Assembly: GCF_947090775.1 (NCBI RefSeq)
Contig: NZ_OX352321.1
Coordinates: 186,001 to 250,000, forward strand
DNA: 64,000 bases
DNA from: Pseudarthrobacter sp. MM222
Lineage (GTDB): Bacteria; Actinomycetota; Actinomycetes; Actinomycetales; Micrococcaceae
Direction of reading: 5' to 3'
Both the position numbers and the translations under genes were made by a program. Each line of letters starts with the position of its first letter. The stretch's first letter is position 1. Below, piece after piece: positions 1 through 14,641 of the stretch. The notes under the pieces were generated by a model. It was not told the origin of the DNA. It made no database searches and worked only from the letters and a program-made list of their open reading frames with translations.

Positions 1-362
1 TGGCCCAGTTTTTCCAGTGCCAGGTTCGCTATCACCTCGTTGGCATTCATGTTTGTGCTCGTGCCGGCACCGCCCTGAATCACGTCTACACAGAACTGTT
101 CGTGGTGGCGTCCGTCCTGGATCTCCTGGCAGGCTTCGCGGATCGCTGCCGCTTGCCGCGGGTTGAGGATGCCAAGTTCGCAGTTGGCCTGCGCCGCAGC
201 GTTCTTGATCATTGCCAGGGCTCGCACCAGCTGCGGATGCCGGGAGACTGGAATCCCACTGATGGTGAAGTTCTCCAAGGCCCGGGCGGTGTGTGCTCCC
301 CAATAGGCTGCGGCAGGTACAGGAACGTTTCCGAGTGAATCCGTTTCGATGCGGGTGGTCAT
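1..362 (-). CDS. aspA: Aspartate ammonia-lyase, N-terminal part (cut by window edge)
   Basis: Converts aspartate to fumarate and ammonia. Only the first 120 codons lie in the window; the rest is beyond position 1. The reading frame from ATG 360-362 begins MTTRIETDSLGNVPVPAAAY and contains VIQGGAGTSTNMNANEVIAN, the substrate-binding block of the aspartase/fumarase superfamily; the GAGTSTNMN form is that of aspartases rather than class II fumarases (TGSGTQSNMN). An AGAGG lies about 10 nt before the start. It is the third gene of a minus-strand run with the homoserine dehydrogenase and aldehyde dehydrogenase, about 100 bp after the latter. This position suggests it is the last step of a homoserine to fumarate route (inference). 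Confidence 0.9.
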   Translation of the reverse strand, partial: MTTRIETDSLGNVPVPAAAYWGAHTARALENFTISGIPVSRHPQLVRALAMIKNAAAQANCELGILNPRQAAAIREACQEIQDGRHHEQFCVDVIQGGAGTSTNMNANEVIANLALEKLG

Positions 363-464
363 GGTTTTTCATCCTCTGGGAGAAGTTTGAGTGGCGCCCT
401 GGTTGCTTGCCGCGAGCTCGGAACCGGAGGGGCGCCAGACCCGGCCCGCGCCCCTCCAGTTAGG

Positions 465-1877
465 TCAGCTTTTGATGCAGATCACTTTTGGCTGGGTCAT
501 TTCCTCATACGCGAAATGGACGCCCTCCCGGCCCATGCTCCCGTACTTGGCGCCGCCGAACGGCATGCCGTCGAACCGGTAATCAGAGGAATCGTTGATC
601 ATGACGCCCCCTGCTTCCAGCTGCCGGGCCGCGTCCATGGCCCTGGCCAGGGAGTCGGTGAAGATGCCCGCGTGAAGGCTGAATTCGATGGCATTGGCGA
701 CGTCGATGGCTTCTTCAAAAGTGTCAAACTTACGGAGCATGACCACAGGCCCGAAGACCTCGTTCCTCCACAGGCTGCTGTCCGACGGGACTGCCTCCAG
801 GACGGTCGGCTCAAGCACGTTACCCTCCGCGATGTTGCCTGCGAGCAGGAGAGCGCCGGCGTCGAGGGCTGCATCCAGCTTGGTCTGAAGCTCCTGCAGT
901 GCAGTGCGGCTGATCATGGGCCCCACATCCGTGCGTTCGTCCGATGGGTCTCCGCTTACCAAATGCGCCGTTGCTTCCAGGAAGCGCCGGCGGAATTCGC
1001 CGTACACCGGCGCGGCTACGAGGATCCGCTGCACTCCCACACAGTTCTGGCCGGCGGCCCAAAACGCCCCGGAGACGCAGGAGTCCACTGCATTCTGGAT
1101 GGGGGCGTCATCCAGGACAATCACGGGCGCGTTGCCGCCGAGATCCATGCTGAGCTTCTTCAGGCCTGCGGTGCGGGCGATGCTCTCACCTGTGGAGAAA
1201 CCGCCCGTGAAGGACACCATTCGTACGTCCCGGGATCTGATGATTGATTCGGCCAATTCCCGGTCGCCATGAACAATTATCAGGGCCTCGGGCGGGAGTC
1301 CGGCGCCCATGAGGGCGTCCGTGAGCAGCTGGGCCGACAGGGGAGTCAGCGCAGAGGGCTTGAGGATCACGGCGTTTCCTCCGGCGAGTGCCGGACCGAT
1401 TTTGTGTGCCACCAGGTTGAGGGGGTCGTTGAAGGGAGTGATCGCGGCAATGATGCCCAATGGCTCGCGTGAGTACCATCCGGTGCGGTCCTCAGAGCCC
1501 TCATACGAGTCAAAGGGGATGACTTCGCCAGCATTCCGGCGCGCTTCGGCGGCAGAGAGGCGGAGCGTGTTGACCGCACGGAGCACTTCCTTGCGCGCCT
1601 GGCGGATCGTTTTCCCGGCCTCGGCCACAATCGTCTGCGCGAACTCTTCGGTCCGCTGCTCGATCTCCGTTGCGGCGCCGTCCAGTATCTTGCCACGTGC
1701 GTTGCGGGACAGGGCCCTTGCCTTCCGGGCGCCGACGCGGGCTATTTCGATGAGGGCATTGCCGGCGTTGGCTTCGGTCAGCGAAACCGCGCCGACAACT
1801 CTGCCGTCGTAGGGGCTGGTCACATCACGGAACTGCGGCAGCATTGTTTCCGTCGAACACAGCGCGGATTCAGACAT
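465..1877 (-). CDS. NAD(P)-dependent aldehyde dehydrogenase, possibly aspartate-semialdehyde oxidising
   Basis: Oxidises an aldehyde to the acid. 470 residues, normal for the ALDH superfamily. Visible are the Rossmann-region ITPFNDPLN and KPSALTP segments, FTGG, the catalytic Cys in [18 protein letters not shown] and the C-terminal [15 protein letters not shown] block typical of succinate-semialdehyde/lactaldehyde-type enzymes. The usual LELGG general-base motif reads MDLGG, so the normal Glu is Asp, which may reflect a subgroup. The start overlaps the stop of the homoserine dehydrogenase gene by 8 nt, so the two are translationally coupled. Acting after homoserine dehydrogenase, aspartate semialdehyde is the obvious candidate substrate, giving aspartate for AspA; this is inference, and succinate semialdehyde remains possible. 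Confidence 0.85.
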
Positions 1878-2922
1878 TTGCGGCCACTCCCGTCTTGGCT
1901 GCGTGCATGGCGATGATGTCGGAGAGTAGGGCGTAGGCGGTCTCCACCCGGCCGGCTCCTGGTCCTGAGACTGTTACTGCCCCCAAAAGGTCGGTGTCGA
2001 AAGACACGGCATTGGTTGCGCCGGAAACCCCGGCCAGCCCATGGCCGAGGGGGAGCGCTACGGGGGATACGCCTGCGGTCACTGATCCGTCCGGGTTCCG
2101 CCGCGCTGCACCGACGAGCTTCCAGCGGCGTCCCTCGCGGGCTGCCTTCTGAATGTTCTCCGGCGTCACGGTCGACATTCCCTGGCGCTGAACGTCCTTG
2201 AGCTCGATGCCGGCATCGAGCAGTTCGTTGGCGAGGATAAGAACCTTGAGCTGAACGTCGTAACCCTCGATGTCTGCTGCGGGGTTTGCCTCGGCGTAGC
2301 CAAGCTCCTGTGCCTCGGCGATTGCCGCTTCAAAGTCCAGTCCGGCTTCCATGCGCCCGAGCACATAGTTGCTGGTGCCGTTGAGGATGCCTTCGAAGCC
2401 GTTCAGCTTCAGCCCCGCGAACATCTTCTTGGCCAGGCGGATGACGGGAGTGCCGCTCATGACGGCGCCTTCGAACTCGAAGTGCACGCCGTGCTGTTCG
2501 GCCAGGGCGGTCAGCTCGGCACCGCGGAGGGCCACCGGGCCCTTGTTGGTGGTGCAGACGCTCTTGCCGGATTCCAGTGCCCATCGCACGTGGGAAACAG
2601 CTGGTTCGCCGTCTTCAGGGTTGGTGAAGGTGGCCTCGCAGATAATGTCGGCGGTGCAGGTGCGGATTACTGATTCGTTGTTGGTGTCCGCGGATCCGCC
2701 GAACGCGGCGAACGTTTCGCTGGCCCCGTCCAGGTTAAGGGCGGACGCGAGGTCGATGCCCTCGGGCTGGATCAGTGAGCCGAGGCGCAGGTCAGTGATG
2801 GCCACTACCCGCAGGCCGAAGCCCAGCTCGGATCGGAATGCGTCGCCGCGTGTTGCGATCAGTTCGGCGAGGGTCCTGTTGACGCCGCCGAAGCCGATCA
2901 GCGCAATGTCGTAGGTGGTCAT
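1870..2922 (-). CDS. Short homoserine dehydrogenase lacking the ACT domain
   Basis: Interconverts homoserine and aspartate semialdehyde. 350 residues: N-terminal NAD(P) fold beginning [18 protein letters not shown], then [28 protein letters not shown] and the catalytic block around [20 protein letters not shown] with its Asp and Lys residues. Biosynthetic actinobacterial Hom proteins are around 430 residues with a C-terminal ACT domain for threonine feedback; here the protein ends after the catalytic domain. AAGGAG lies 4 nt before ATG 2922. It leads the operon with the aldehyde dehydrogenase and aspartase, divergent from an amino-acid permease. Lack of feedback control and this context suggest a catabolic role running homoserine to aspartate semialdehyde (inference). 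Confidence 0.88.
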
Positions 2923-3224
2923 GGTGCTCCTTCAGTCAGGTACATCGGTCATCCAATGCTGGCCGCATTCCATGTCCGTCAGTACATGTGGATGTGACTC
3001 AATGACAGGTCTAATCGACCATTCGCCTGCCGGTTCGACATCGACACCAAATGTAACCTTCGCTCAACATAGACATGTTGAAATGTTTTTAATGACCAAA
3101 ATGGGGTTTTCGTGTTACTTTCGTCACTACCGCCATTGCACAGCCCGAGCCAGCCTTGTCCGAAGCGCCGGTGGCAATGTGCGAAGTCTTCGCATCAGAC
3201 CCGTCCGCTTACCTGGGAGAAACC
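2923..3224. promoter_or_regulatory. Divergent control region between homoserine dehydrogenase operon and permease, with inverted repeats
   Basis: This stretch is less GC-rich than the genes around it and holds no convincing gene. At 3066-3079 it carries AACATAGACATGTT, an AACAT/ATGTT inverted repeat with a 4-nt gap, followed by a second ATGTT at 3083-3087, so ACATGTTGAAATGT (3073-3086) is a further inverted repeat. Two IclR-type regulators are encoded nearby and such repeats are plausible operators. A related CAT-N6-ATG sequence is found before the homocysteine methyltransferase gene. No promoter hexamers could be assigned with certainty. Confidence 0.4.
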
Positions 3225-4664
3225 ATGGAACCCTCAGCACCAGTCCAGCTAGCCCTGCAACCCCCGATTCCCCCGACCACCGATTCCGGGCTCCGGCGTT
3301 CCATGGGGGCGCGGCACCTGGTCATGATCGCCATGGGCGGGGTGATCGGCTCCGGGCTGTTCCTGAGCTCGGGCTACACCATTTCCCAGGCCGGGCCGCT
3401 CGGGGCGGTCATCGCGTATCTGATCGGCGCCTTCGTGGTGTACCTGGTCATGGCATGTCTTGGCGAACTAGCCATCGCCTATCCGGTCTCCGGCGCCTTC
3501 CATATCTACGCGGCGAGGTCGATCGGGCCGGCCACCGGTTTCACCACGGCCTGGCTCTACTGGCTGTGCTGGGCCGTGGCCATCGGATCAGAGTTCACAG
3601 CCTCCGGTCTACTTATGCAGCGCTGGTTCCCCGGTGTTGACGTCTGGGTCTGGTGCGTCATCTTCGCCGCGATCCTCTTCGGCCTCAACGCAGTTTCTTC
3701 CAAGTTCTTTGGTGAATCCGAGTTCTGGTTTGCCATCGTCAAGGTCGGCGCGATCGTTGTGCTCATCGTTCTCGGCGGCGCGGCGCTGTTCGGCCTCCAC
3801 CCGCTCAGCGAGGGCACCGGCCACGCGTTCATGTTTGAAAACTTCAACACCTCCAGCGGGCTTTTCCCCAACGGCTTTACGGGTGTTCTCGTCACAGCAC
3901 TTGCTGTCTTTTATGCGTTCTCCGGCTCGGAACTCATCGGCGTGGCAGCGGGTGAAACCGCTGACCCTGCCACCAGCATCCCCAAAGCCATGCGCAGCAC
4001 TGTCATCCGTCTGCTGATCTTCTTCGTCGGGGCGATCGCCGTCATTGCAGCTACCATCCCGTTCGAGCAGGTCGGGCTGGATGAAAGCCCGTTCGTGACG
4101 GTCTTCTCGTCCATCGGCATTCCGTTTGCTGCCGACATCATGAACTTCGTCATCATCACCGCCCTCCTCTCCGCCGGGAACAGCGGCCTCTTCTCCTGCG
4201 CACGGATGCTCTACTCCCTTGCCGACGAGGGGCACGCCCCCCGGGCGCTGAAGAAGCTGACCCGGCGGGGCATCCCCATGACCGCGCTGTCGGTCAGCAT
4301 GCTCGGGGGCCTGGCATCACTCATCAGCAGTGTCGTTGCACCCGAAACGGTCTACCTGGCTCTCGTTTCGGTCGCCGGTTTCGCCGTCGTCGGGGTCTGG
4401 ATGTCCATCACCGCGTCGCGCTTTTTCCACAGAAGGTCCTTCGTCAGGAAGGGCGGCGATGTCGCCGCCCTTCCCTACAAGGCCCCGCTGTTCCCGCTGG
4501 TGCCGATCCTGGCCTTCTCTCTCTGTCTCATCTCGCTCATCGGCATCGCCTTTGACCCGAACCAGGTAGCAGCCCTCTATTTCGGAGTCTCTTTCGTTGC
4601 TGCCTGTTACGCCTTCTTCTACTTCAAATACGGGCGTAAGGCGCGGACCGACCAGCCTTCCTAA
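3225..4664 (+). CDS. APC-family amino-acid permease, S-methylmethionine permease (MmuP)-like
   Basis: Membrane transporter for an amino acid, 479 residues with about 12 hydrophobic segments. MGARHLVMIAMGGVIGSGLF is the first transmembrane signature of the AAT branch of the APC superfamily; FSGSELIGVAAGETADPATS and LSAGNSGLFSCARMLYSLA follow. As I recall the E. coli S-methylmethionine permease, these blocks resemble it closely; no alignment was run. The longer frame opens at TTG 3156, but GGAG five nt before ATG 3225 makes the latter the likely start. It is divergent from the homoserine dehydrogenase operon and a few genes from a homocysteine S-methyltransferase, which supports homoserine, methionine or S-methylmethionine as substrate (inference). 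Confidence 0.85.
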   Translation: MEPSAPVQLALQPPIPPTTDSGLRRSMGARHLVMIAMGGVIGSGLFLSSGYTISQAGPLGAVIAYLIGAFVVYLVMACLGELAIAYPVSGAFHIYAARSIGPATGFTTAWLYWLCWAVAIGSEFTASGLLMQRWFPGVDVWVWCVIFAAILFGLNAVSSKFFGESEFWFAIVKVGAIVVLIVLGGAALFGLHPLSEGTGHAFMFENFNTSSGLFPNGFTGVLVTALAVFYAFSGSELIGVAAGETADPATSIPKAMRSTVIRLLIFFVGAIAVIAATIPFEQVGLDESPFVTVFSSIGIPFAADIMNFVIITALLSAGNSGLFSCARMLYSLADEGHAPRALKKLTRRGIPMTALSVSMLGGLASLISSVVAPETVYLALVSVAGFAVVGVWMSITASRFFHRRSFVRKGGDVAALPYKAPLFPLVPILAFSLCLISLIGIAFDPNQVAALYFGVSFVAACYAFFYFKYGRKARTDQPS

Positions 4665-5055
4665 CTCCATCATCAGTCAGCGCCAACTCAGCGCGGCGGC
4701 CGCGGACCCACGTCCCCGGCCGCCTCGCTGTCCTTCGGCATCCCATGAATTCACAAGAGCAGCCGCACGGGCCTGCGGCACGACATCGAAGAACTCGTTG
4801 CCGCCGCCGAGCGCCTGGGAGATGCGCAAGATCGCTGCCGAGGCCGGAAAAGTTGGTCCGCAGTTACGGAAATGGCCACCGGCGCGCGCTGGCCAGCCAG
4901 GGCGCCGTGCTTGTCCGCACCCGTCGCGTTGCGATTGTCGATGTCACGGGCGCAGCGGAGCTCTACGCCGTGTGGGCGCAAGGAAACCGCGTCCCGATCA
5001 ACAATAAAGGCGTGTGAGAATAGGCGTAGTCATCGGGGCGGAAGGAGCATGGAGA
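4665..5055. other. Gene-free stretch, possible eroded coding sequence
   Basis: About 390 bp between the permease and the first IclR gene. No intact gene is convincing. Two short stretches read like protein in different frames: GLRHDIEELVAAAERLGDAQ around 4770-4830 and GAVLVRTRRVAIVDVTGAAE around 4905-4965. Such a pattern could be a frameshifted remnant of a small gene, but chance coding potential in high-GC DNA is also possible. The tail (about 4990-5055) should hold the promoter and the ribosome site of the IclR gene. Confidence 0.25.
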
Positions 5056-5856
5056 ATGGACTCTTCCGCGGAAGCGTCGTCCATGGCCCAGGGGCTTCGG
5101 ATAGTTCGGCTGGTCGCGGACCGGGAGAAGTGGGGCAGACGTCTGCTCGGCGTTTCCCAGCTCGCATCCGAGCTGGACATGGAGCAAAGCCGTGTCTCCC
5201 GGTTGACGCAGGAATTGTGTGAGCTGGGATTGCTGGAACGCGTCGAGCGGGGCCCGTTCCGAACCGGCCCACGTTTTTTCAGCCTCGCCGCGGCATTGAA
5301 TGCCGGCTGGGTCCGCGAATCAAGAACGGAACTCGAGGCCCTCGTGGCTTCTTTCGGCCTCAGGTCCAGAGTCTCCGTCCGTGATGGCTTCCGCGTGATT
5401 CTCCTGCGGGCGTCCAGTAATGACGCGGTTCCCGGGAGCTTCGTCAAACCCGGCATGGTGACACCCGTATGGTGTACCGGATCCGGACGGGCGCTGCTGT
5501 GGGATGACCGGCAGCCTGACGTTCAAGCCCTCCTCAAGGACGTCAATTTCATCGGCGTTGGTGGCCCGGGCGCGGCCCATTCGCCAGAAGAAGTGATCCA
5601 GCTGATGGAGCGGGACCGGGCGCGGGGCTTTATTGTCGCGGAGGAGGAATTCGAGCACGGAGTGTACGAATTGGCCGTTCCCGTCCGCAGCGCTGACGGT
5701 TCAATTCTGGCCTCGCTCAGCGTCCTGGGCAGCGGGGCCGGGATCAACTCCGGCGCCAATGACATTGCAAACGCCCTCATGGCGGCAGCCGAACGGTTGG
5801 GCTCCTGGGAGGCCCATACCCGGGGCGACACGGCCCGGAAGGGCCTTGCCGGCTAG
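5056..5856 (+). CDS. IclR-family transcriptional regulator (first copy)
   Basis: DNA-binding regulator, 266 residues from the chosen start. Residues about 8-65 form a winged helix (LGVSQLASELDMEQSRVSRL), and the remainder is the IclR effector domain, ending in the usual region RARGFIVAEEEFEHGVYELA followed by AVPVRSADGSILASLSV. The frame also opens at GTG 5014, but AAGGAG 9 nt before ATG 5056 favours the latter. The gene ends against the second IclR gene, overlapping it tail to tail by 4 nt. Likely controls the flanking homoserine/methionine catabolic genes in response to a small ligand (inference). Confidence 0.87.
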   Translation: MDSSAEASSMAQGLRIVRLVADREKWGRRLLGVSQLASELDMEQSRVSRLTQELCELGLLERVERGPFRTGPRFFSLAAALNAGWVRESRTELEALVASFGLRSRVSVRDGFRVILLRASSNDAVPGSFVKPGMVTPVWCTGSGRALLWDDRQPDVQALLKDVNFIGVGGPGAAHSPEEVIQLMERDRARGFIVAEEEFEHGVYELAVPVRSADGSILASLSVLGSGAGINSGANDIANALMAAAERLGSWEAHTRGDTARKGLAG

Positions 5857-6629
5857 AGCAGGTTCTGCGGCAAGGGGTAACCCAGCGCCGATTCAAGCCA
5901 TTTACCCCAGGACACAAGAGCCGTGGCGCAAAACTCCCGGCGGGGCTCCAATCGTGTTTTGGCTCCTACGACCTGTAGCGCTGCCACTACATCGCCCTTG
6001 AAGTCCCGGACCGGAACGGCCAGGGAATACAGACCCGGCTCGGCTTCCTCATCGACAATGGAATACCCCCGTGCCCGCGCCGCCCGCAGCCGGGAGAGGA
6101 AGTCCTCGACATCCAGCGGTGTATTGGGGCCATGCCGGACGAAGGCAACGTCGGTGAAAATTGTCCGGACCTCGGCGTCCGACGCTTCCCACAGCAGGGC
6201 CTGGCCGGCATCACTGCAGAATGCCGGATAGGGCCGGCCCAGCCACGAACCCACCATGTTGCTGCTTGCCGGGACACATTCACCGATGGTGACGGTACTG
6301 TCCCCGCTCAGGATTCCAAGGAAGCAACCTTCATCGGTTTCGCCAGCCAAACCTTCCAAAGCCGTCACGCCGTCGGTCTGCAACCGTTGTTCCGTCAACA
6401 GCTGCGCGTCGGTCAGGAGCGACCAGTTCAGGGAGTAGGACCGGTGGTCTCCGCGTGCCAGGAACCCCTCCTGCTCGGCGGTCCGCAGGCTGCGCGAAAC
6501 CTGGCTGCGGTCCTTGCCCAGATCGGCTGCTATATCAGCGACCGTTCCGCCAGGAAGGCCTCCTGCGTTGCGGGAGCCGACCGCCAGGACAGCCATGATT
6601 CCCCGGCCCATGCTGGATGTCTTAGACAT
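5853..6629 (-). CDS. IclR-family transcriptional regulator (second copy)
   Basis: 258 residues from ATG 6629 (GTG 6647 in frame would add six). Winged helix near the N-terminus (GGTVADIAADLGKDRSQVSR), then the effector domain with ARGYSIVDEEAEPGLYSLA and AVPVRDFKGDVVAALQVVGA. It parallels the adjacent convergent IclR protein in layout, so the pair may be an old duplication; the two are clearly not near-identical. It lies about 30 bp downstream of the cyclase gene on the same strand and may be the last gene of the NIF3-like/cyclase operon. No clear Shine-Dalgarno is seen for either start. Confidence 0.86.
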   Translation of the reverse strand: MSKTSSMGRGIMAVLAVGSRNAGGLPGGTVADIAADLGKDRSQVSRSLRTAEQEGFLARGDHRSYSLNWSLLTDAQLLTEQRLQTDGVTALEGLAGETDEGCFLGILSGDSTVTIGECVPASSNMVGSWLGRPYPAFCSDAGQALLWEASDAEVRTIFTDVAFVRHGPNTPLDVEDFLSRLRAARARGYSIVDEEAEPGLYSLAVPVRDFKGDVVAALQVVGAKTRLEPRREFCATALVSWGKWLESALGYPLPQNLL

Positions 6630-6659
6630 GGATCCGATTCTAGTCACTTGACCCGCGTG

Positions 6660-7412
6660 TCAGTGGATGGCGAAGACCCGGGCAGGAAAACCGCTGCCGC
6701 TCAGGGGCTTAGGCCAGCTCGCAATGATGGCGGCGCCGGCTTCCGGAAGTCCTTGCAAGTTCGCCATGAGCTCGATCTGCCACCGGTTCTGTGACAGGAC
6801 ATACGTTTCCAAGCTGAAATCCTGGCGGGACGTTGCCATCCCCGGGTCCGTGTCCGTCTGCTCATGACCGACGGCAGTAACTGACCGCTCCTCAAGGAGG
6901 AAGGAAAGGGCTTCGCGCGACCAGCCTGGTGTGTGGCTGACACCCTCCTCATCCCTGTTTGCCATGGCGCTAACGTCGGGCCAACGGTGACTCCACCCGG
7001 TCCGCAAGGCCACAAAGGCCCCGGCTGGGATGGCGCCGTTGCGGCGCTCCCATGCCTGGACGTCCTCCAGCGTGGGCGTCGCGTCCGGATCGGCGGTGAC
7101 CCGGGCGGTGATGTCGAGGATGACCAGCGGAAGGACCATGTCCTCGACCGGAATCTGGTCCAGGGTCCGTCCCCCGCGGATGAAATGCGATGGGGGATCA
7201 ACGTGCGTGCCCCATTGGCCGATGATCGAATAGCGGTGAGCGGTGAAACCGTCGCCGTCCTCCAGGTCGAACAACGCCTCCCTGATCTCATCGGGGAATG
7301 CCGGGAAATGCGGCTGGCCAGGGTGGAAGGCGTGAGTCAGGTCGGTGAAAGACCTGCCGGCAAGCAGCGGCCGCAGTCCGTCCCACAGCCCGGTCCTGGT
7401 GGCTTCCATCAT
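6660..7412 (-). CDS. Metal-dependent cyclase/hydrolase family protein (kynurenine formamidase/isatin hydrolase fold)
   Basis: 250 residues of the cyclase family (PF04199), whose characterised members hydrolyse N-formylkynurenine, isatin or related amides and lactams with divalent metal. The family metal motif HxGTHxDxPxH appears as QWGTHVDPPSHF, so the first His is Gln while the GTH, Asp and last His are kept. A later VGHEQTDTDPG fits the substrate-proximal His/Asp region. The ATG overlaps the stop of the upstream NIF3-like gene as ATGA, so the two are coupled. The substrate is unknown; context with homoserine and methionine genes raises a lactone or amide of those amino acids, which is speculation. 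Confidence 0.8.
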   Translation of the reverse strand: MMEATRTGLWDGLRPLLAGRSFTDLTHAFHPGQPHFPAFPDEIREALFDLEDGDGFTAHRYSIIGQWGTHVDPPSHFIRGGRTLDQIPVEDMVLPLVILDITARVTADPDATPTLEDVQAWERRNGAIPAGAFVALRTGWSHRWPDVSAMANRDEEGVSHTPGWSREALSFLLEERSVTAVGHEQTDTDPGMATSRQDFSLETYVLSQNRWQIELMANLQGLPEAGAAIIASWPKPLSGSGFPARVFAIH

Positions 7413-7858
7413 GACGCAGCCCCGCTCACTTGGATGGCCGGAAGTGCCGTGCTGGAGACGCTGATGGGTCCGGTCAGTTCGATGACCGGCACTTCCCAGG
7501 GGTGGATATCAACGATGTGCTGCAGGAAGCGTTCGACCGCAGCGTCTTCGAGCGCGGCATCGAAATAGGTTGTAAAGACAAAAGTGGGTGAAATTGTGCG
7601 CTGGCCCACCTGCCCCAGCGTCGGGTTTGCGCCTTCGGTGCAGGTGAACCCCTCGAAACCGAGGCCGGATTCGAAGACATGCCTGTAGTTGCCAAAATCC
7701 CCCAAGTCAGGGGAATCCGACAAAGCCTGAAGCAGGGCCGCGATGCCGGCTTCCTCTCTGAATGCTTCTACGTCGCCCTTGGCGAGCCGCGAGAAGGATT
7801 CCGCGACTATGGGCCAATGCACCCGCATCTTGCGTACTGATTTCATTTCAATCTTCAA
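7409..7858 (-). CDS. Small stand-alone NIF3/PII-like domain protein (YqfO insert-type), function unknown
   Basis: 149 residues. The middle and C-terminal parts carry GNYRHVFESGLGFEGFTCTE, then GANPTLGQVGQ, and end in a strand-forming block with HPWEVPVIEL. This series matches the pattern of the CutA/PII-like insert of NIF3/YqfO proteins (G-Y, G-G-F, GA-P-x-G, and HPYEEP near the end), here with W-E-V instead of Y-E-E. The N-terminal 50 residues are not recognised. Start: TTG 7858 with AGAGG 5 nt upstream; ATG 7846 has no ribosome site at a usable distance. First gene of an operon with the cyclase. The family assignment is from motif reading only. Confidence 0.6.
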   Translation of the reverse strand: MKIEMKSVRKMRVHWPIVAESFSRLAKGDVEAFREEAGIAALLQALSDSPDLGDFGNYRHVFESGLGFEGFTCTEGANPTLGQVGQRTISPTFVFTTYFDAALEDAAVERFLQHIVDIHPWEVPVIELTGPISVSSTALPAIQVSGAAS

Positions 7859-7969
7859 GGAATCCTCTTTCTGAGCGGTTCACAATAGATGTCTGAATGC
7901 ATGTTGGCATAGAGTGATGGTCATTACAAGCATTGAAAAATGCTCATTACGCACATGTGGGAGCCGTCG
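7859..7969. promoter_or_regulatory. Divergent control region with palindrome AGCATTGAAAAATGCT
   Basis: AT-richer 111 bp between the NIF3-like/cyclase operon and the homocysteine methyltransferase gene. At 7929-7944 there is AGCATTGAAAAATGCT (6-bp arms, 4-nt centre), flanked by a direct repeat TCATTAC at 7921-7927 and 7944-7950. The inner CATTGAAAAATG resembles CATGTTGAAATG at 3074-3085 before the permease, which suggests one regulator for both promoters, most simply one of the two IclR proteins. No hexamers can be assigned firmly. Confidence 0.45.
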
Positions 7970-8959
7970 ATGTTGAATCAGCACATCCATCCGCCCAGAA
8001 ACACCAAGCTGTCGCGCATGCTCGATGCTGGAGCGAACCTGACTGTGGACGGGGCACTCGCCACCGAGCTTGAAGCGCTCGGCTGTGATCTGGAAGACCC
8101 GCTGTGGTCGGCTAAGGTCCTTCTGGAACAGCCGGAGCTCGTCAAGCGCGTACACGGCGACTACTTCCGCGCCGGTGCCTCGGTGGCCATCACGGCCAGC
8201 TACCAGGCAACACCGCTGGGATTTGCGCGGCGCGGCATCGGTGAGGAGGACGCGTTGGAACGGGTGGCATTGAGTGTGCGGCTGGCCGACGAGGCGCGCC
8301 GCGAGCACCGGGCAGAAAACCCGGAGACGGGCACCCTGCTGGTTGCAGGATCGGTCGGGCCGTACGGCGCGTACCTCGCCGACGGGTCGGAATACCGGGG
8401 CGACTACTTCCTCAGCCACAACGAGTTCCTGGAGTTCCACCGGCCCCGGATCGCAGCGCTGGTGGAGGCGGGAGCTGACTTTCTTGCCTGCGAGACGCTG
8501 CCTTCATTGCCGGAGGCCGAGGCCCTTTTGGCGCTCCTGAAGGAATTTGAGGTCGAAGCCTGGCTCTCCTTCACGCTGCGGGACGGCGGCCACATCGCCG
8601 ACGGTACGCCGCTGGCTCAGGTGGCAAAGCTTTGCGGGGAGCAGCCGCTCGCCGTGGCGATCGGCGTGAACTGTGTGCCGCTGGAGCTGGTCGCTCCAGC
8701 CCTGGAGGCCTTGGCCAACGCCACCGAGAAGCCGCTGATCGCGTATCCGAATTCGGGTGAAAGCTATGACGCAGTCACCAAAACGTGGGGGCCGGCCGTG
8801 GCCGGGGACCGCCCATCGGGTCCCGGCAGTAAACAGCCTGCAGGCCTTGCGGAGGGGGCGCCCCTCTGGCGTGAACTTGGTGCCCGGCTGATCGGCGGAT
8901 GCTGCCGGACCACCCCGCAGGACATCGCCGCAATGGCCAGACTGTCAGTGCGGCCCTGA
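7970..8959 (+). CDS. mmuM: Homocysteine S-methyltransferase
   Basis: Transfers a methyl group to homocysteine to make methionine, in characterised relatives using S-methylmethionine or S-adenosylmethionine as donor. 329 residues, usual for MmuM. Starts the (beta/alpha)8 fold with DGALATELEALGCDL, and keeps the zinc-binding Cys residues in GVNC and GGCCRT near the C-terminus. The frame opens at ATG 7940 and 7955, but GGGAG six nt before ATG 7970 identifies the likely start. It stands alone on the plus strand, divergent from the NIF3-like/cyclase operon. Together with an MmuP-like permease 3 kb away it suggests use of S-methylmethionine (inference). Confidence 0.87.
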   Translation: MLNQHIHPPRNTKLSRMLDAGANLTVDGALATELEALGCDLEDPLWSAKVLLEQPELVKRVHGDYFRAGASVAITASYQATPLGFARRGIGEEDALERVALSVRLADEARREHRAENPETGTLLVAGSVGPYGAYLADGSEYRGDYFLSHNEFLEFHRPRIAALVEAGADFLACETLPSLPEAEALLALLKEFEVEAWLSFTLRDGGHIADGTPLAQVAKLCGEQPLAVAIGVNCVPLELVAPALEALANATEKPLIAYPNSGESYDAVTKTWGPAVAGDRPSGPGSKQPAGLAEGAPLWRELGARLIGGCCRTTPQDIAAMARLSVRP

Positions 8960-9030
8960 CCGGAAGCTGCCAGGGGGCGGAGTAGGTCCGGTTTACGGTT
9001 GATCGCAGCGCACCGCCCCGCGGGATGCCG

Positions 9031-9525
9031 CTAATCCGCCTGCCGGAGCCCGGCCGCATCCAGAATGAGTCCCGCAGAGATGAACCGGCCGCATTGCTGG
9101 CCGTACGGGTAGGCCACCCGGGGCGTGAAGGTCACCGTCCGGACGGGCAGGGGCAGGCCACTGACGTCAATACCGCTGGACGTCGCGTCAATCCGGGACT
9201 CAGTCAGCCGGTCGAACATCAGCATCCCGGTGAGGGTCCCATCGGGGGAGGAGGTGGCCGAACAGGCCCTATCGCTACCCGGGCCCGGTTCGCAGCCCTG
9301 GTCCACGGTGGTGCTCCCCGGAAACAGCTCCAACTCCGACTCAACGCAGCGGCCCTCCTGGCATGCCCGGAGCCGGATGGTCTTCACCGTAGCGGCGTAG
9401 TCCCGCGCAACCGTCAACGCAACCACCGGCGCCGGAGCAATCGCCGGGCAAGCCGTCTCGGGCTGGCAACCGGCCGCCGGAAGTGCTGCAACAGCCAGGG
9501 CGAGAACCGCCGCAAACTTGCGCAT
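9031..9525 (-). CDS. Small secreted lipoprotein of unknown function
   Basis: 164 residues. N-terminal signal MRKFAAVLALAVAALPAAGC with a lipobox (LPAAGC) indicates export and lipid anchoring at Cys20. The mature part has several Cys residues (CQEGRCVESE, QGCEPGPGSDRAC, GQQCGRF) that could pair outside the cell, and no domain I recognise. It lies convergent with the homocysteine methyltransferase gene and downstream of, but apart from, mutY. Confidence 0.7.
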   Translation of the reverse strand: MRKFAAVLALAVAALPAAGCQPETACPAIAPAPVVALTVARDYAATVKTIRLRACQEGRCVESELELFPGSTTVDQGCEPGPGSDRACSATSSPDGTLTGMLMFDRLTESRIDATSSGIDVSGLPLPVRTVTFTPRVAYPYGQQCGRFISAGLILDAAGLRQAD

Positions 9526-9707
9526 GCCTCAGGGTAGATCCGGAAGGCCGGTCCAGCTAGGCCGTCCGGATTCCTGCACTGGCGCCAGGCGCCGGGCGCC
9601 ATACCGCCGCCGCACCCCGTTCGTGCCGGGCGCACCGGGCCCCGCACCCGCCGTTGCACAGCGGCGCCTCCGCGCCATCCGTGCCGCCATGCGGCACCCA
9701 CGCCCGG

Positions 9708-10793
9708 TCAGGCCGGTAGCCGGAGACCGCCAAGGTGCAGTTCGGCGAGACCGTCGGCCAGCAGGCCGGCCAGCGCACGTTCAAGCTGTTCGGGTGCGGA
9801 ATTGAGCCGGTGCAGGGCCGCCAACGGAATGCCGACCCCGGCCGGCTCGAAGCCAAGGTCCGCCGGGGCGCGCTGGAGCAGTTCCGGCGGCACCGGGGCA
9901 TCGGCCACGCGGAGGACGGCCAGCACGGCGCCGCGGACCTGGCGGTCCGTCCCGTGCCAGGACTGGCCTTTCGGCGTATAGGTCGGCGGCGGTTCGCCGG
10001 CAGCGAGCCAGGCGCAGGAACTGCGCACGGGGCATGCGCCGCACTTCGGCGCCCGAGCCGTGCAAACCAGGGCGCCGAGCTCCATGACGGAGGCATTCCA
10101 GCGCACGGAGGCCCCGACGTCGTCCGGCAGCAGCTGCCCCGCCAGCCGCATCTCCGTGGCGGTCAGCGCCTGCGAAGGCAGGGCGGTGCCGGCAAACAAC
10201 CGTGCATGGACCCGGCGGATGTTGGTGTCCACCACCGTTTCGCGGCGTCCGTAGGCGAAAGCGGCGACGGCCGCCGCGGTGTAGCTGCCCACGCCGGGAA
10301 GCCCCAACAGCTCCGCGTAGGTGGCAGGGACCATCCCGCCGTGGCTGTCCCCGATGGCGACGGCCGCCGCATGCAGGCGCAGCGCCCGCCGCGGATAGCC
10401 GAGCCGGCCCCACGAACGGACGGCTTCACCTGCGGACTCCCTGGCCAGGTCGGCCGGCTCCGGCCAGCGCCGCAGCCATTCCTCCCAGACCGGAAGGACA
10501 CGCACCACCGGGGTCTGCTGCAGCATGATCTCGCTGACCAGCACGCCCCAGGCAGAACAGCCGGCATCCCGCCACGGGAGATCGCGGGCGTGGGACTCGA
10601 ACCAGGTGTCCAGGGCAGCATGAAGGCCGGCCAGCGAGGCGCCGGCGTCCGAGGGCGGGACGCCGGGCGTCGGGCCCGACGGTTTTTCGGGTGGCGCGGC
10701 CATGGGCAGGGCGGGGGGATCGGCTAAAGCTTTGATCCAATCAGCGTAATAGATGCGGGCGGTGGCCGCTCCAGCGGCGTGGTGGGACCCCAT
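9708..10793 (-). CDS. mutY: A/G-specific adenine DNA glycosylase
   Basis: Removes adenine mispaired with 8-oxoguanine. Catalytic Glu in SEIMLQQTPV, helix-hairpin-helix LLGLPGVGSYTAAAVAAFAY, catalytic Asp in VVDTNIRRVHARLF, and an iron-sulphur cluster motif C-x6-C-x2-C-x5-C (CTARAPKCGACPVRSSC). 361 residues if started at 10793; the first 30 residues look low in conservation and ATG 10703 is an alternative start. No convincing Nudix-like recognition domain follows the cluster beyond a short C-terminal region. Near disA and radA, so this part of the window is rich in genome-integrity functions. Confidence 0.9.
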   Translation of the reverse strand: MGSHHAAGAATARIYYADWIKALADPPALPMAAPPEKPSGPTPGVPPSDAGASLAGLHAALDTWFESHARDLPWRDAGCSAWGVLVSEIMLQQTPVVRVLPVWEEWLRRWPEPADLARESAGEAVRSWGRLGYPRRALRLHAAAVAIGDSHGGMVPATYAELLGLPGVGSYTAAAVAAFAYGRRETVVDTNIRRVHARLFAGTALPSQALTATEMRLAGQLLPDDVGASVRWNASVMELGALVCTARAPKCGACPVRSSCAWLAAGEPPPTYTPKGQSWHGTDRQVRGAVLAVLRVADAPVPPELLQRAPADLGFEPAGVGIPLAALHRLNSAPEQLERALAGLLADGLAELHLGGLRLPA

Positions 10794-10821
10794 AGTCTGC
10801 GGGGGTCTCTAGCCTAGAAGG

Positions 10822-11550
10822 ATGGGCAGGCAAGGCAACTCAGGAACAAGCGGTTCACGACCGAAGGGTTCCGGCAGCGGACAGGCCGCGCGCAAGCCCG
10901 CCAGGAAGCCCGCGCGGAAACCGGCGCGGAAACCGGCCAGCCCGGTCTTCCGCCGCCGACGGCTGTTGGTGGGCGCTGCCCTTCTCGCGGTGATCGCCGT
11001 CGTCGTGGGCGGCTTCATTGCCGTCGCCAGCATCATCAACGGCGACGGGCAATCCGTTCCGGATGGGGCCGCAACATCCACCGGTGCCCAGACAACTGGT
11101 CCGAGCCAGTCCGCTGCAACGTCCTCCGCCACGCCCTCCGCCACGTCGACGGAGGCCAGCGGCTGCCAGCAGAACCTCATCGTCGTCACGGCTTCCACCG
11201 ACAAACCGAGCTACGGCGCCGGTGAGAAGCCGCTGCTCAGTCTCAAGGTCACGAACAACAACAAGATGCCGTGCGAGGTCAATATCGGAACCTCGCAGAT
11301 GGAGTTCCTGATCACCAGCGGCTCGGACCGGATCTTCTCCTCGCAGGACTGCCAAGCAGACAGCACGGACCTGATGAAGACCATCGCGCCGGGCAAGAGC
11401 GAGACGGCCAACTTCCCGTGGCAGCGCAACCGTACCGTCCAGGGCTGTGACCCCATCGAAGCGAAGCCGGGCGCGGGCGGGGCGTACTACGTCTTCACAG
11501 CGCGCCTGGCGAGCAAGACGAGCCCGAAGGCCGTGTTCCAGCTCAACTGA
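10822..11550 (+). CDS. Membrane-anchored exported protein with (ARKP)n basic repeat
   Basis: 242 residues. The N-terminal cytosolic part is Gly/Ser-rich and then repeats ARKP four times, followed by RRRR and one transmembrane helix (LLVGAALLAVIAVVVGGFIA). A Ser/Thr-rich linker leads to a C-terminal domain of about 130 residues with three or four Cys (GCQQN, PCEVN, QDCQAD, QGCDP), likely outside the cell. No enzyme motif is seen. The domain layout recalls small actinobacterial surface proteins of unknown role. Divergent from mutY (28 bp) and convergent with disA across a 48-bp palindromic repeat. Confidence 0.72.
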   Translation: MGRQGNSGTSGSRPKGSGSGQAARKPARKPARKPARKPASPVFRRRRLLVGAALLAVIAVVVGGFIAVASIINGDGQSVPDGAATSTGAQTTGPSQSAATSSATPSATSTEASGCQQNLIVVTASTDKPSYGAGEKPLLSLKVTNNNKMPCEVNIGTSQMEFLITSGSDRIFSSQDCQADSTDLMKTIAPGKSETANFPWQRNRTVQGCDPIEAKPGAGGAYYVFTARLASKTSPKAVFQLN

Positions 11551-11560
11551 TTTCATCCGC

Positions 11561-11608
11561 TGCTCCGTAAACGCCCTTTTGGGGCCCCAAAAGGGCAGTT
11601 GCGGAGCA
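11561..11608. repeat. 48-bp palindromic element, copy 1 (likely bidirectional terminator)
   Basis: Outer arms TGCTCCG (11561-11567) and CGGAGCA (11602-11608) enclose a perfect 24-bp palindrome at 11573-11596 whose arms are GCCCTTTTGGGG and its complement. It sits between convergent genes (the membrane protein and disA), 10 bp after one stop and 12 bp after the other. A second copy of exactly the same length is at 27730-27777, again between convergent genes, and both are followed by A(T/C)CGA(C/T)GG. Hairpins form on both strands and carry internal T runs, fitting a two-way terminator. Confidence 0.75.
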
Positions 11609-11619
11609 ATCGACGGGGT

Positions 11620-12696
11620 TTAGAGGAACCTGTCCAGCAGACTGGCTTCAGCCATGCGGCTCAGTCCCTCGCGGACGGTGCGGGCACGCTGGTCGCCAAT
11701 GCCGTCCACGGTCATGAGGTCATCGATTGTGGCCGCCATCAGGAACTGCAGCCCGCCGAAGTGGTCCACCAAGCGGTCGGCGACGGCCTTCGGCACGGCC
11801 TTGAGCCCGGACAGCAGGCGGTAGCCGCGCGGCTGGACGACAGCATCGAGGTTGGCCTCCCCGCCGGCAAAGCCGACGATGCCCGCGATCTTGCTAAGGT
11901 CGATCAGCTCCGTGGGGCCGAGGCTGACCAAGGCCTTGACGGCTTTGTCGATGTCTTCGGGGGAGGTGTCCGCGCCGGAGTAGTCCCGGATGATGACATC
12001 GCTGCCGGGACCCCGGCCCACCGTCAGTTCGTCCAGCTGCAGCGATAGCAGGCGCCCGTCCTCACCAAGTTCCAGCACGTACTGCGAGATCTCCTCGGAG
12101 ATGCGGCGCACCATTTCCTGGCGCTGAAGGGTGACCGCAACGTCGCGAACGGTCACCATCGCCTCGATCTCGAGCGCTGACAGCGAGCTGGTCACCTGGT
12201 CCAGTCGCGAACGGTACCGCTCCAGGGTGGCCAAGGCCTGGTTGGCGCGGGCCAGGACCTTCTCCGAGCCTTCCAGCACGTGCCGCAGCCCGTTCACGTA
12301 GAGCGCGATAATCTGCATGGACTGGCTTACTGAGATGACCGGCACGCCGGTCTGGATGGCCACGCGTTCGGCGGTGCGGTGACGTGTTCCTGATTCCTGG
12401 GTTTCGATGCTGGAGTCCGGCACCAGCTGCACGGCGGCGCGGAGGATATTGCTGGCGTCCTTGTCGCAAATGATGGCGCCGTCCATCTTGGCCAGTTCCC
12501 GGAGCCGCGTGGGGGAAAAGTCGATGCCGATGTCGAAGCCGCCGGAACAGATGGACTCGATGGTCCGGTCGATGCCGAGCACGATCAGCGCACCGGTCCG
12601 TCCGCGGAGGATGCGTTCCAGGCCGTCGCGAAGGGCGGTGCCCGGTGCCACCCTGCCCAGAGTCGCCTTAAGTGAATCTTCAGGGCTCCGAGCCAT
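11620..12696 (-). CDS. disA: DNA integrity scanning protein, diadenylate cyclase
   Basis: Makes cyclic di-AMP from two ATP and scans DNA for branched structures. 358 residues from ATG 12696 (AAGGG six nt upstream; an in-frame TTG just before gives one residue more). N-terminal DAC domain with DGAIICDKD and RHRTAERVAIQTGVPVISVS, both needed for cyclase activity; a helical middle part; C-terminal helix-hairpin-helix region (FLMAATIDDLMTVDGIGDQR). Convergent with the (ARKP)n protein. radA, a known functional partner of disA in other bacteria, is 8 kb away in this window. Confidence 0.95.
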   Translation of the reverse strand: MARSPEDSLKATLGRVAPGTALRDGLERILRGRTGALIVLGIDRTIESICSGGFDIGIDFSPTRLRELAKMDGAIICDKDASNILRAAVQLVPDSSIETQESGTRHRTAERVAIQTGVPVISVSQSMQIIALYVNGLRHVLEGSEKVLARANQALATLERYRSRLDQVTSSLSALEIEAMVTVRDVAVTLQRQEMVRRISEEISQYVLELGEDGRLLSLQLDELTVGRGPGSDVIIRDYSGADTSPEDIDKAVKALVSLGPTELIDLSKIAGIVGFAGGEANLDAVVQPRGYRLLSGLKAVPKAVADRLVDHFGGLQFLMAATIDDLMTVDGIGDQRARTVREGLSRMAEASLLDRFL

Positions 12697-13027
12697 CAAT
12701 TTCCCTTCAAAGGTGCAGGCCAGCGCCCGCAGGTACGCCGGTTTCCAGTGTTTCCCGGCAGGATCAAAAGTACTCGGTTCCCCGCTCTCACCATGATAGA
12801 GGTAACGGAGGGCCGCAACCGCACAGGCAAGCCTTAAAGTGGCCCATTCGAGACCTGCGCGCGGGGCCCCGGAATGGCCCCGGAGCGCGCCGCCCGAAAC
12901 CGCACTTTGGCGGTGTCCGGGACCCGCTTCGCGTCAGTTCGGCGGCCTGCGATAAACTGGAAGCCGTGGATGGACCGCGGGCTCTCCGCGCGATTCCCCT
13001 CCCCACCGCCGCAGCGAAAGTAGCACC
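12697..13027. promoter_or_regulatory. Divergent intergenic region disA / prfC
   Basis: 331 bp with no gene supported. Both flanking genes must be transcribed from it. A GATAAACT at about 12951-12958 could be a -10 element for prfC, but no matching -35 is clear. No strong inverted repeat or riboswitch-like fold was recognised by eye. Confidence 0.3.
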
Positions 13028-14641
13028 GTGTCCCAAGACGTCCTTAGCCCCGCCCGAGTCCAGGAGATTCACAAGCAGGCGGCCCGGCGTCGGACTTTTG
13101 CGGTGATCTCGCACCCCGACGCCGGCAAATCCACCCTGACGGAGGCCCTCGCACTGCACGCCAAGGTGATCGGCACTGCCGGCGCCTCCAGCGGCAAGGC
13201 CAACCGCAAGGAAACGGTCTCGGACTGGATGCAGATGGAAAAGGACCGCGGCATCTCCATCAGCTCCGCCGCGCTCCAGTTCGGCTACCGGGACACCGTC
13301 ATCAACCTCCTGGACACCCCGGGCCATGCGGACTTTTCCGAGGACACCTACCGCGTGCTCGCGGCGGTGGACTGCGCCGTCATGCTGGTCGACGCCGCGA
13401 AGGGCCTGGAAACCCAGACCATGAAGCTCTTCGAGGTCTGCAAGCAGCGCAACCTGCCCATCATCACGGTCATCAACAAGTGGGACCGGCCCGGCCTGGA
13501 CGCCCTCGCCCTCATGGACGAAATCACCGAGCGCACCGGGCTGCAGCCCATGCCGCTGACCTGGGCCGTGGGCATCTCCGGCGACTTCCGCGGCGTCTGG
13601 GACCTGCGCAATGACCGCTTCGCGCAGTTCAAGCGCAACAACTCCGGCGCCAACATCGCCCTCACCGAGTACTTCACCCCTGACGAGGCCGCGGCCAGCC
13701 AGGGCGATGACTGGTCCAACGCCGTGGACGAGGCCGGGCTGGTCATCGAATCCAACCTGGCGTTCGACGTCGAGGCCTTCCACGCCGGCAAGGCGACGCC
13801 GATCCTCTTCAGCTCGGCCGCGCTGAACTTCGGCGTGAAGGAGATCCTGGACGCCCTCGTCGACTTCGCCCCGCCCGCTGCCCCGCGGCCCGACGTCGAA
13901 GGTGAGCCCCGCCCGGTCGACGCCCCGTTTGCCGGGTTCGTTTTCAAGGTCCAGGCCGGCATGAACAAGGCCCACCGCGACCACGTCGCCTTCATCCGGG
14001 TCTGCTCCGGGATGTTCGAGCGCGGCATGGTGGTCACCCAGACCCGGACCGGGAAGTCCTTCGCCACCAAGTATGCCCAGCAGGTGTTCGGCCGCGAACG
14101 CGAGGTCATTGACGAGGCGTTCCCCGGCGACGTCGTTGGCCTGGTGAATGCCTCGTCGCTGCGGGTCGGCGACAGCCTGTTCCTGGATCAGCCGGTGGAG
14201 TTCCCCGCCATCCCCTTGTTCGCCCCGGAGCACTTCCAGGTGGCCCGGTCCAAGGACCCCAGCCGCTTCAAGCAGTTCCGCCGCGGCATCGAGCAGCTGG
14301 AGCACGAAGGCGTCATCCAGGTCCTCCGTTCCGACATCCGCGGTGACCAGGCCCCGGTGCTGGCCGCCGTCGGACCTATGCAGTTCGAAGTGGTCGAAGA
14401 CCGCATGGCCCACGACTTCAGTGCGCCCATGCGGCTGGAGCGGTTGCCGTATTCGATTGCCCGGATCTCGACGGCGGACGCCATGGCGGTGCTGGCCAAC
14501 GTCCCCGGTGCCGAGGTGCTGCTGCGCTCCGACGGCGAGTACCTGGCTTTGTTCAACGACGTCTGGGCGCTGCGCAGGATCGAGAAGAACCATCCGGACC
14601 TGACGCTGCTGCCGATCGGCACCCACAATCCCGCAAAATAG
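13028..14641 (+). CDS. prfC: Peptide chain release factor 3
   Basis: GTPase that recycles release factors 1 and 2 from the ribosome after termination. 537 residues, usual length. G1 SHPDAGKSTLTEALAL, switch region with KETVSDWMQMEKDRGIS, G3 DTPGHADFSEDTYR, G4 INKWD; then the RF3 domain 2/3 region including QTRTGKSFATKYAQQVFGRE. The GTG start at 13028 gives the canonical N-terminus MSQDVLSPARVQEIHKQAA. Stands alone, divergent from disA. Confidence 0.96.
   Translation: MSQDVLSPARVQEIHKQAARRRTFAVISHPDAGKSTLTEALALHAKVIGTAGASSGKANRKETVSDWMQMEKDRGISISSAALQFGYRDTVINLLDTPGHADFSEDTYRVLAAVDCAVMLVDAAKGLETQTMKLFEVCKQRNLPIITVINKWDRPGLDALALMDEITERTGLQPMPLTWAVGISGDFRGVWDLRNDRFAQFKRNNSGANIALTEYFTPDEAAASQGDDWSNAVDEAGLVIESNLAFDVEAFHAGKATPILFSSAALNFGVKEILDALVDFAPPAAPRPDVEGEPRPVDAPFAGFVFKVQAGMNKAHRDHVAFIRVCSGMFERGMVVTQTRTGKSFATKYAQQVFGREREVIDEAFPGDVVGLVNASSLRVGDSLFLDQPVEFPAIPLFAPEHFQVARSKDPSRFKQFRRGIEQLEHEGVIQVLRSDIRGDQAPVLAAVGPMQFEVVEDRMAHDFSAPMRLERLPYSIARISTADAMAVLANVPGAEVLLRSDGEYLALFNDVWALRRIEKNHPDLTLLPIGTHNPAK

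Follow-up and report, generated by a model that had tools for sequence, protein, structure and literature searches.

Rhizobial operons for the catabolism of homoserine and canavanine have reportedly been described by Vanderlinde in 2014 and Hauth in 2022; we know of them through citations elsewhere. Passages of PMC10228743 refer to a cluster for homoserine catabolism in rhizobia, and to Liang 2022 for a new homoserine dehydrogenase (HSD) family from Arthrobacter nicotinovorans with a strong preference for homoserine oxidation; passages of PMC10018355 cite the breakdown of canavanine to homoserine. Here we describe a locus in the soil bacterium Pseudarthrobacter sp. MM222, whose close relatives are Arthrobacter species, that combines enzymes of this kind with other genes. 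It lies at the left end of a 64-kb window (G000:C1:186001-250000) of the genome's single 4,287,032-base contig. An HSD, an aldehyde dehydrogenase (ALDH) and an aspartate ammonia-lyase (aspartase) face an amino acid permease resembling MmuP. Nearby are two IclR-family regulators, the homocysteine S-methyltransferase MmuM and two overlapping genes, CYC and NIF, which encode a cyclase-family hydrolase and a small protein of predicted PII/CutA fold.

How does this locus compare with the rhizobial operons? Two of three rhizobial plasmids examined carry an HSD-ALDH-DapA-aspartase operon with an Lrp gene, so the HSD-ALDH-aspartase cassette is a known module that has been re-used; these two operons are presumably the published ones. 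The third plasmid holds an HSD, an Lrp gene and a fragment of an ALDH, and no aspartase. The rhizobial operons share HSD, ALDH, aspartase and Lrp with our locus, at 62-64% identity for HSD and 61-63% for ALDH. They add, however, a pyridoxal phosphate (PLP) enzyme, an SMR transporter, DapA and a phosphotransferase, whereas the window has the MmuP-like permease, CYC, NIF and the IclR genes. A genome of Paenarthrobacter nicotinovorans (L131) carries the locus, minus MmuM, with an HSD 79% identical to the window's; our guess is that this is the enzyme of Liang 2022.

Two further systems resemble the remaining genes. The mmuP-mmuM genes of Escherichia coli use the methyl group of S-methylmethionine (SMM), the plant compound also called vitamin U. 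As there, a MmuP-like permease and MmuM share one locus in the window; unlike there, a homoserine-degrading operon has the same promoter motif. Phage S-adenosylmethionine (SAM) lyases are PII-like and release homoserine lactone, the proposed mechanism being attack on SAM by its own carboxylate. With these enzymes (T3 SAMase, Svi3-3) and the SAM-AMP lyases NIF would share the PII-like fold, and a carboxylate attack freeing homoserine lactone is proposed for both. NIF, in contrast, shows no sequence similarity to T3 SAMase, and for it we propose another sulfonium and a catabolic role.

We conclude that the locus is one conserved unit. It probably serves to oxidize homoserine to aspartate and, in this strain, on to fumarate. 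The analysis shows the anatomy of the locus, the common motif, the joint occurrence and synteny of the genes and, as a model, the fold class of NIF; every substrate named below is one that we infer. The cassette is already known from rhizobia; the part that we did not find described is the CYC-NIF front end. The titles and beginnings of abstracts listed in our searches of open-licence papers name no CYC-NIF-permease front end, no cyclase-NIF-homoserine locus and no gene for an SMM lyase. The original prediction, made from the window's letters, knew of no pathway with exactly this gene set. That view has to be confined to the front end, since the cassette is known.

Anatomy of the locus

The features of the locus, in window coordinates, are these:

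1-362, minus strand: N-terminal part of aspartase (full gene NF008909 673.5 bits, cut-off 510; PF00206)
465-1877, minus strand: ALDH, 470 residues (PF00171, 455.4 bits)
1870-2922, minus strand: HSD without ACT domain, 350 residues (NF004912, 450.2 bits, cut-off 373)
3065-3096, minus strand: first copy of an operator-like motif, lying between HSD and the permease (weight-matrix score 31.1, IUPAC pattern match)
3225-4664, plus strand: MmuP-like amino acid permease (NF008484, 622.8 bits)
4764-5005, plus strand: remnant of a decayed broad-specificity racemase gene, between the permease and IclR1 (tblastn E 8.7e-14, large gaps)
5014-5856, plus strand: IclR-family regulator 1, IclR1 (PF01614, 48.7 bits, cut-off 24)
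5853-6647, minus strand: IclR-family regulator 2, IclR2 (PF01614, 97.7 bits, cut-off 24)
6660-7412, minus strand: cyclase-family hydrolase CYC (PF04199, 138.6 bits, cut-off 23.1)
7409-7858, minus strand: NIF, 149 residues, PII/CutA class by the fold of its predicted model
7920-7951, plus strand: second copy of the operator-like motif, lying between NIF and MmuM (weight-matrix score 49.0, IUPAC pattern match)
7940-8959, plus strand: MmuM (NF007020, 395.9 bits, cut-off 215)

Much of this had been anticipated: a short HSD lacking an ACT domain, an ALDH overlapping it by 8 nucleotides, aspartase in the same operon, a MmuP-like permease facing them, and a homocysteine S-methyltransferase and two IclR regulators nearby are all borne out. 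HSD carries PF00742 and, by Pfam, no ACT domain. The only other HSD retrieved from the genome has 442 residues and an ACT domain, so the short enzyme is likely dispensable for biosynthesis. ALDH matched 45 NCBIfam models; among the 25 listed none attains its own cut-off, and none of these gives a match to a named equivalog. We propose that the enzyme converts aspartate semialdehyde to aspartate. In an alignment of 74 stretches, in which the window's gene and some genomes count twice, Cys279 is retained throughout. Residue 245, where most ALDHs have a catalytic Glu, is Asp in 68 of the 74 and Glu in six.

The aspartase gene starts at 362 and is interrupted by the window end; the complete gene, of 467 codons for amino acids, lies at 16959-18362 of L003. 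It exceeds the cut-off of the subfamily model and falls below that of the equivalog TIGR00839 (579.2 against 681.2), and it contains a GRTQLQDA stretch that we take to be of aspartase type. Beyond it come a convergent Lrp gene (L003 16480-16953) and a HAD-family gene (L003 15665-16405).

For the permease, MmuP is the closest model by far (runner-up 375.1 bits), its score lying below the model's cut-off of 716. The ATG at 3225 is our choice of start; the list of open reading frames has a TTG at 3156. The racemase gene, a remnant here, is open at the same place in L056, L057, L059, L070 (for example 6812-7975) and other relatives. CYC and NIF share 4 nucleotides. MmuM is divergent from NIF, and the starts called in relatives suggest that its own lies slightly downstream of 7940.

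Joint conservation and a shared promoter motif

A survey of genomes for co-occurrence of these families, proposed with the original prediction, found gene order, joint presence and promoter motif conserved beyond chance. In 395 genomes of the family (thresholds E ≤ 1e-30 for NIF, 1e-40 for CYC and 1e-80 for HSD), NIF and CYC each occur in 39, which by our reading of the tables are the same genomes. HSD was found in 33 genomes, 32 of them with CYC (Fisher 4e-39, phylogeny not corrected for); in four of the 32 (G361, G369, G372, G382) HSD maps to another part of the genome, at 65-67% identity. Another 35 family genomes gave weak NIF matches only (2e-8 to 7.5e-4). Thirteen of these matches, when inspected, were short proteins without the NIF-specific stretch, and the two that were scanned with Pfam match CutA1 below its cut-off.

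With NIF we located 61 loci, 59 of them in genomes titled Arthrobacter, Pseudarthrobacter or Paenarthrobacter (two being metagenome-assembled) and two in sphingomonads. Genes were counted in the 59 at 50% identity and 60% coverage or more, within flanks of 10 kb or to the contig end. CYC and NIF are present in all 59, IclR2 in 58, the permease and IclR1 in 55 each, Lrp in 37, HSD and ALDH in 36 each, MmuM in 34, aspartase in 16 and the racemase in 15. Two of the four loci lacking the permease are at contig ends (L099, L118). Gene order is uniform across these loci as tabulated. All 16 aspartase genes sit in loci with HSD. In the other 20 such loci Lrp comes 11-342 bases after ALDH, so aspartase is truly absent there and aspartate would need other enzymes. 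The HAD-family gene accompanies HSD in at least 24 of 36 loci (the flanks end near it) and is found in none of the 23 without HSD; it occurs also in L055, L163 and L164. The idea that HSD and MmuM substitute for each other was dropped, since MmuM is found in 23 of 36 loci with HSD and 11 of 23 without, with no association visible.

The set also travels in other arrangements. Both L055, from a relative of a different genus, and a Streptomyces plasmid (L160/L163) hold the genes for HSD, ALDH, aspartase, Lrp, the HAD-family protein, CYC, the permease and NIF along with the two types of IclR, in a different order and without MmuM. The Streptomyces proteins are 66% (HSD), 64% (ALDH), 66% (aspartase), 60% (Lrp), 50% (HAD), 71% (CYC), 75% (permease), 47% (NIF), 45% (IclR1) and 56% (IclR2) identical to ours, and this permease too is closest to MmuP (607.9 bits on NF008484). 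Among 396 genomes of the phylum, NIF (E ≤ 1e-20) was found in four: the window genome, one of the same genus and two, of 8-9 Mb, from another family of the class. In the last two only IclR2, NIF, CYC and IclR1 of the set were matched within 20 kb. The smallest unit seen, apart from the CYC-NIF-IclR2 of L154 and L155, is therefore CYC-NIF with two IclR genes, the permease and the homoserine cassette being frequent additions.

In some relatives another cassette of the type Lrp-[aspartase]-ALDH-HSD, divergent from the first, lies elsewhere (L079-L083), beside genes that by eye look DapA-like or aminotransferase-like. The sphingomonad loci (L157, L158; 10001 onward) contain NIF-like stretches 38-42% identical, that of L157 with a stop codon; no other gene of the set was matched there in 20 kb. 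In Arthrobacter sp. Hiyo8 (L111) several locus genes match in broken pieces, perhaps through sequencing errors.

Are the two divergent promoter regions linked? Upstream of NIF lies a conserved element of the type CATTACAAGCAT-N-ATGCTTATTA. We built a position weight matrix of 32 positions from 59 NIF-promoter sites (L098-L156), leaving the window out of the training. Across the window its two best places are 7920 and 3065; besides overlapping reverse matches, the next place scores 7.8. The regions upstream of the permease, on which the matrix was not trained, number 56 (36 loci of relatives plus the window, with HSD opposite, and 19 without HSD), and all 56 score at least 12.0, with a median of 27.4, against at most 3.0 for one mononucleotide shuffle of each. 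Scored separately, 17 of the 19 without HSD gave 14.7 to 39.1. With a fixed background, all 211 sites above 12 in the 59 loci fall within the two promoter regions or at most 50 bases away; with the window's own background 213 such sites were counted, their positions left unassigned. Weaker matches occur at NIF promoters outside the training set: 17.9 in L055, 10.7 in the Streptomyces plasmid, and 12.4 and 7.2 in the two genomes of another family. The HSD loci without CYC (L079-L083) have no site above 5.

An IUPAC pattern covering both window copies matches them without mismatch by construction; the result is that no third place in the 4,287,032 bases matches at two mismatches or fewer. A reversed control matches nowhere. 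The two copies agree at 21 of 32 positions. They are imperfect palindromes, with 10 and 9 of 16 pairs in the best register, and a search for inverted repeats of 8 or more in them found none. The matrix took the place of an earlier guess at the motif, TAATGAsC, which occurred in only 22 of 56 permease promoters (0.9 in shuffles) and 6 of 64 NIF promoters (0.6 in shuffles). Because the motif is common to both regions, the HSD/permease and NIF/MmuM promoters would form one regulon; the two IclR proteins are the most natural candidates to bind the motif.

The HSD without ACT is redundant and shares an operon with ALDH and aspartase; it is conserved together with the permease, CYC and NIF, and a promoter motif is common to them. 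For these reasons a homoserine-degrading locus is well supported as a prediction. The route from homoserine to fumarate that was originally suggested fits the window in full and does not extend to the relatives without aspartase.

The CYC-NIF pair and the source of homoserine

CYC and NIF had been described as a cyclase plus NIF3-like pair. The first half stands, through PF04199. NIF has no Pfam match and only a weak, partial sequence match to NIF3-related proteins (best E 0.0033); by fold the likeness is clear, yet it covers only residues 134-241 of a 364-residue NIF3-related chain, so that the NIF3/DUF34 architecture is incomplete. The predicted monomer model has a PII-like ferredoxin fold of the PII/CutA superfamily, the same class as the phage SAM lyases, and comes closer to CutA and NIF3-related proteins than to SAM lyase. 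By sequence NIF shows no relation to T3 SAMase (hhalign probability 0.1%) and no PHROG match up to E 1. The outcome of a comparison with a viral fold library was set aside: its top match (J3IYW3) is nameless, and the remaining matches are weak or to uncharacterised entries. Three acidic residues, E63, E69 and E127, are retained in all nine NIF-clade sequences and missing from all five paralogs in the same alignment, from which the sphingomonad L157 and L158 were excluded. CYC matches 8f9x (131.1 bits) and isatin hydrolase (122.6 bits); isatin hydrolases open a lactam ring.

We propose the following pathway. The MmuP-like permease would import SMM. NIF would cleave its sulfonium through attack by SMM's own carboxylate, yielding dimethyl sulfide and homoserine lactone. 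CYC would open the lactone by hydrolysis to release homoserine, from which HSD would make aspartate semialdehyde. ALDH would turn this into aspartate, which aspartase, here although not in all relatives, would split into fumarate and ammonium. MmuM, where present, would use part of the SMM to methylate homocysteine, and the common motif would be the binding site of IclR1, IclR2 or both.

Several observations bear on the substrate. Bacterial conversion of SMM to dimethyl sulfide has been reported as an activity. Animal liver and kidney hydrolyse SMM to dimethyl sulfide and homoserine, according to a review (PMC13209565), so the net reaction has precedent. A link to SMM is plausible from gene content, the MmuP-like permease being found also in Streptomyces and MmuM in 34 of the 59 loci, its promoter region there being common with that of NIF. 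A flavin mononucleotide (FMN) monooxygenase of the NtaA/DmoA family takes MmuM's place, divergent from NIF, in one clade (by our reading 8 loci in 7 genomes, L066 and L151 being one contig); it scores 332 bits to a dimethyl-sulfide monooxygenase but 363 to an alkane monooxygenase (L066 at 7889-9274, L071, L078, L148, L150-L153). As to canavanine as the source, no PLP lyase of the canavanine gamma-lyase kind was recognised by eye among the open reading frames of L003 and window positions 1-14000, without a profile search of each.

Four points weigh against the proposed pathway. MmuM is optional; the permease stays below the MmuP cut-off; the broad-specificity racemase of 15 loci (scoring some 350 bits against broad-specificity racemases of solved structure and 147 against the best-matching alanine racemase of another kind) has no clear role; and the absence of aspartase from 20 of 36 HSD loci of relatives weakens fumarate as a general end. 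SMM could well be the imported substrate, just short of what we would call probable, and a flow from homoserine to fumarate fed by SMM is a real possibility. CYC as homoserine lactonase, a role proposed from gene context, is tentative. That NIF cleaves SMM is doubtful. Distinctly doubtful, too, is the full proposal. In it NIF would be what the phage SAM lyases correspond to in the catabolism of cells: an SMM lyase of PII fold that releases dimethyl sulfide and homoserine lactone, its gene overlapping that of a PF04199 homoserine lactonase and its product passing into a pathway from homoserine to fumarate.

Alternatives and implications

What if SMM plays no part? The permease might import homoserine or its lactone, for example from the turnover of acyl-homoserine lactones, with CYC as the lactonase and NIF as CYC's metal-handling or regulatory partner. 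CYC does belong to a metal-hydrolase family related to isatin hydrolases, NIF is nearer CutA and NIF3-related proteins than SAM lyase, it was never found without CYC among the 395 family genomes at its threshold, and MmuM is optional. A dedicated chaperone for a single hydrolase would be unusual, however; also against it are a permease that is nearer to MmuP than to the next model by about 250 bits, and a MmuM that shares NIF's promoter region in 34 of the 59 loci. We regard this explanation as doubtful, though worth weighing.

Alternatively, CYC and NIF may act together on a different amino-acid derivative, be it an amide, an ester or a ring compound, whose cleavage yields homoserine or aspartate semialdehyde. 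The racemase between permease and IclR1, of which the window retains a remnant, hints at a D- or racemic substrate. The same gene is optional and decayed in the window, and no substrate that we can name accounts equally well for the MmuP-like permease and MmuM, which makes this alternative unlikely.

The locus might instead combine two functions under one regulator: HSD and ALDH would act on free homoserine, and the permease, CYC and NIF would serve the breakdown of something unrelated. The parts do occur separately: 23 of the 59 CYC-NIF loci have no HSD nearby, and HSD is found with no CYC nearby in L079-L083, on a second Streptomyces plasmid (L164) and on the three rhizobial plasmids. Against such a division, the same motif stands in both promoters, and the parts remain together in the rearranged loci of another genus and of Streptomyces; we consider it improbable. 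That HSD is biosynthetic and its neighbourhood incidental is most improbable of all, for while HSDs are, as is generally known, reversible in principle, the genome has a separate ACT-bearing HSD, the short one adjoins ALDH and aspartase and has its motif in common with the permease and NIF, and an oxidizing HSD of Arthrobacter nicotinovorans is cited in PMC10228743.

Even without the SMM step, the locus offers what is likely a regulon, marked by its own promoter motif, and in CYC and NIF a pair open to direct test. If the proposed pathway is true, common soil bacteria would have known genes for converting SMM to dimethyl sulfide, which is on record as an enzyme activity, and a soil source of dimethyl sulfide would have its gene. 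The PII-fold lyase chemistry of phages and CRISPR systems would then extend to catabolism.

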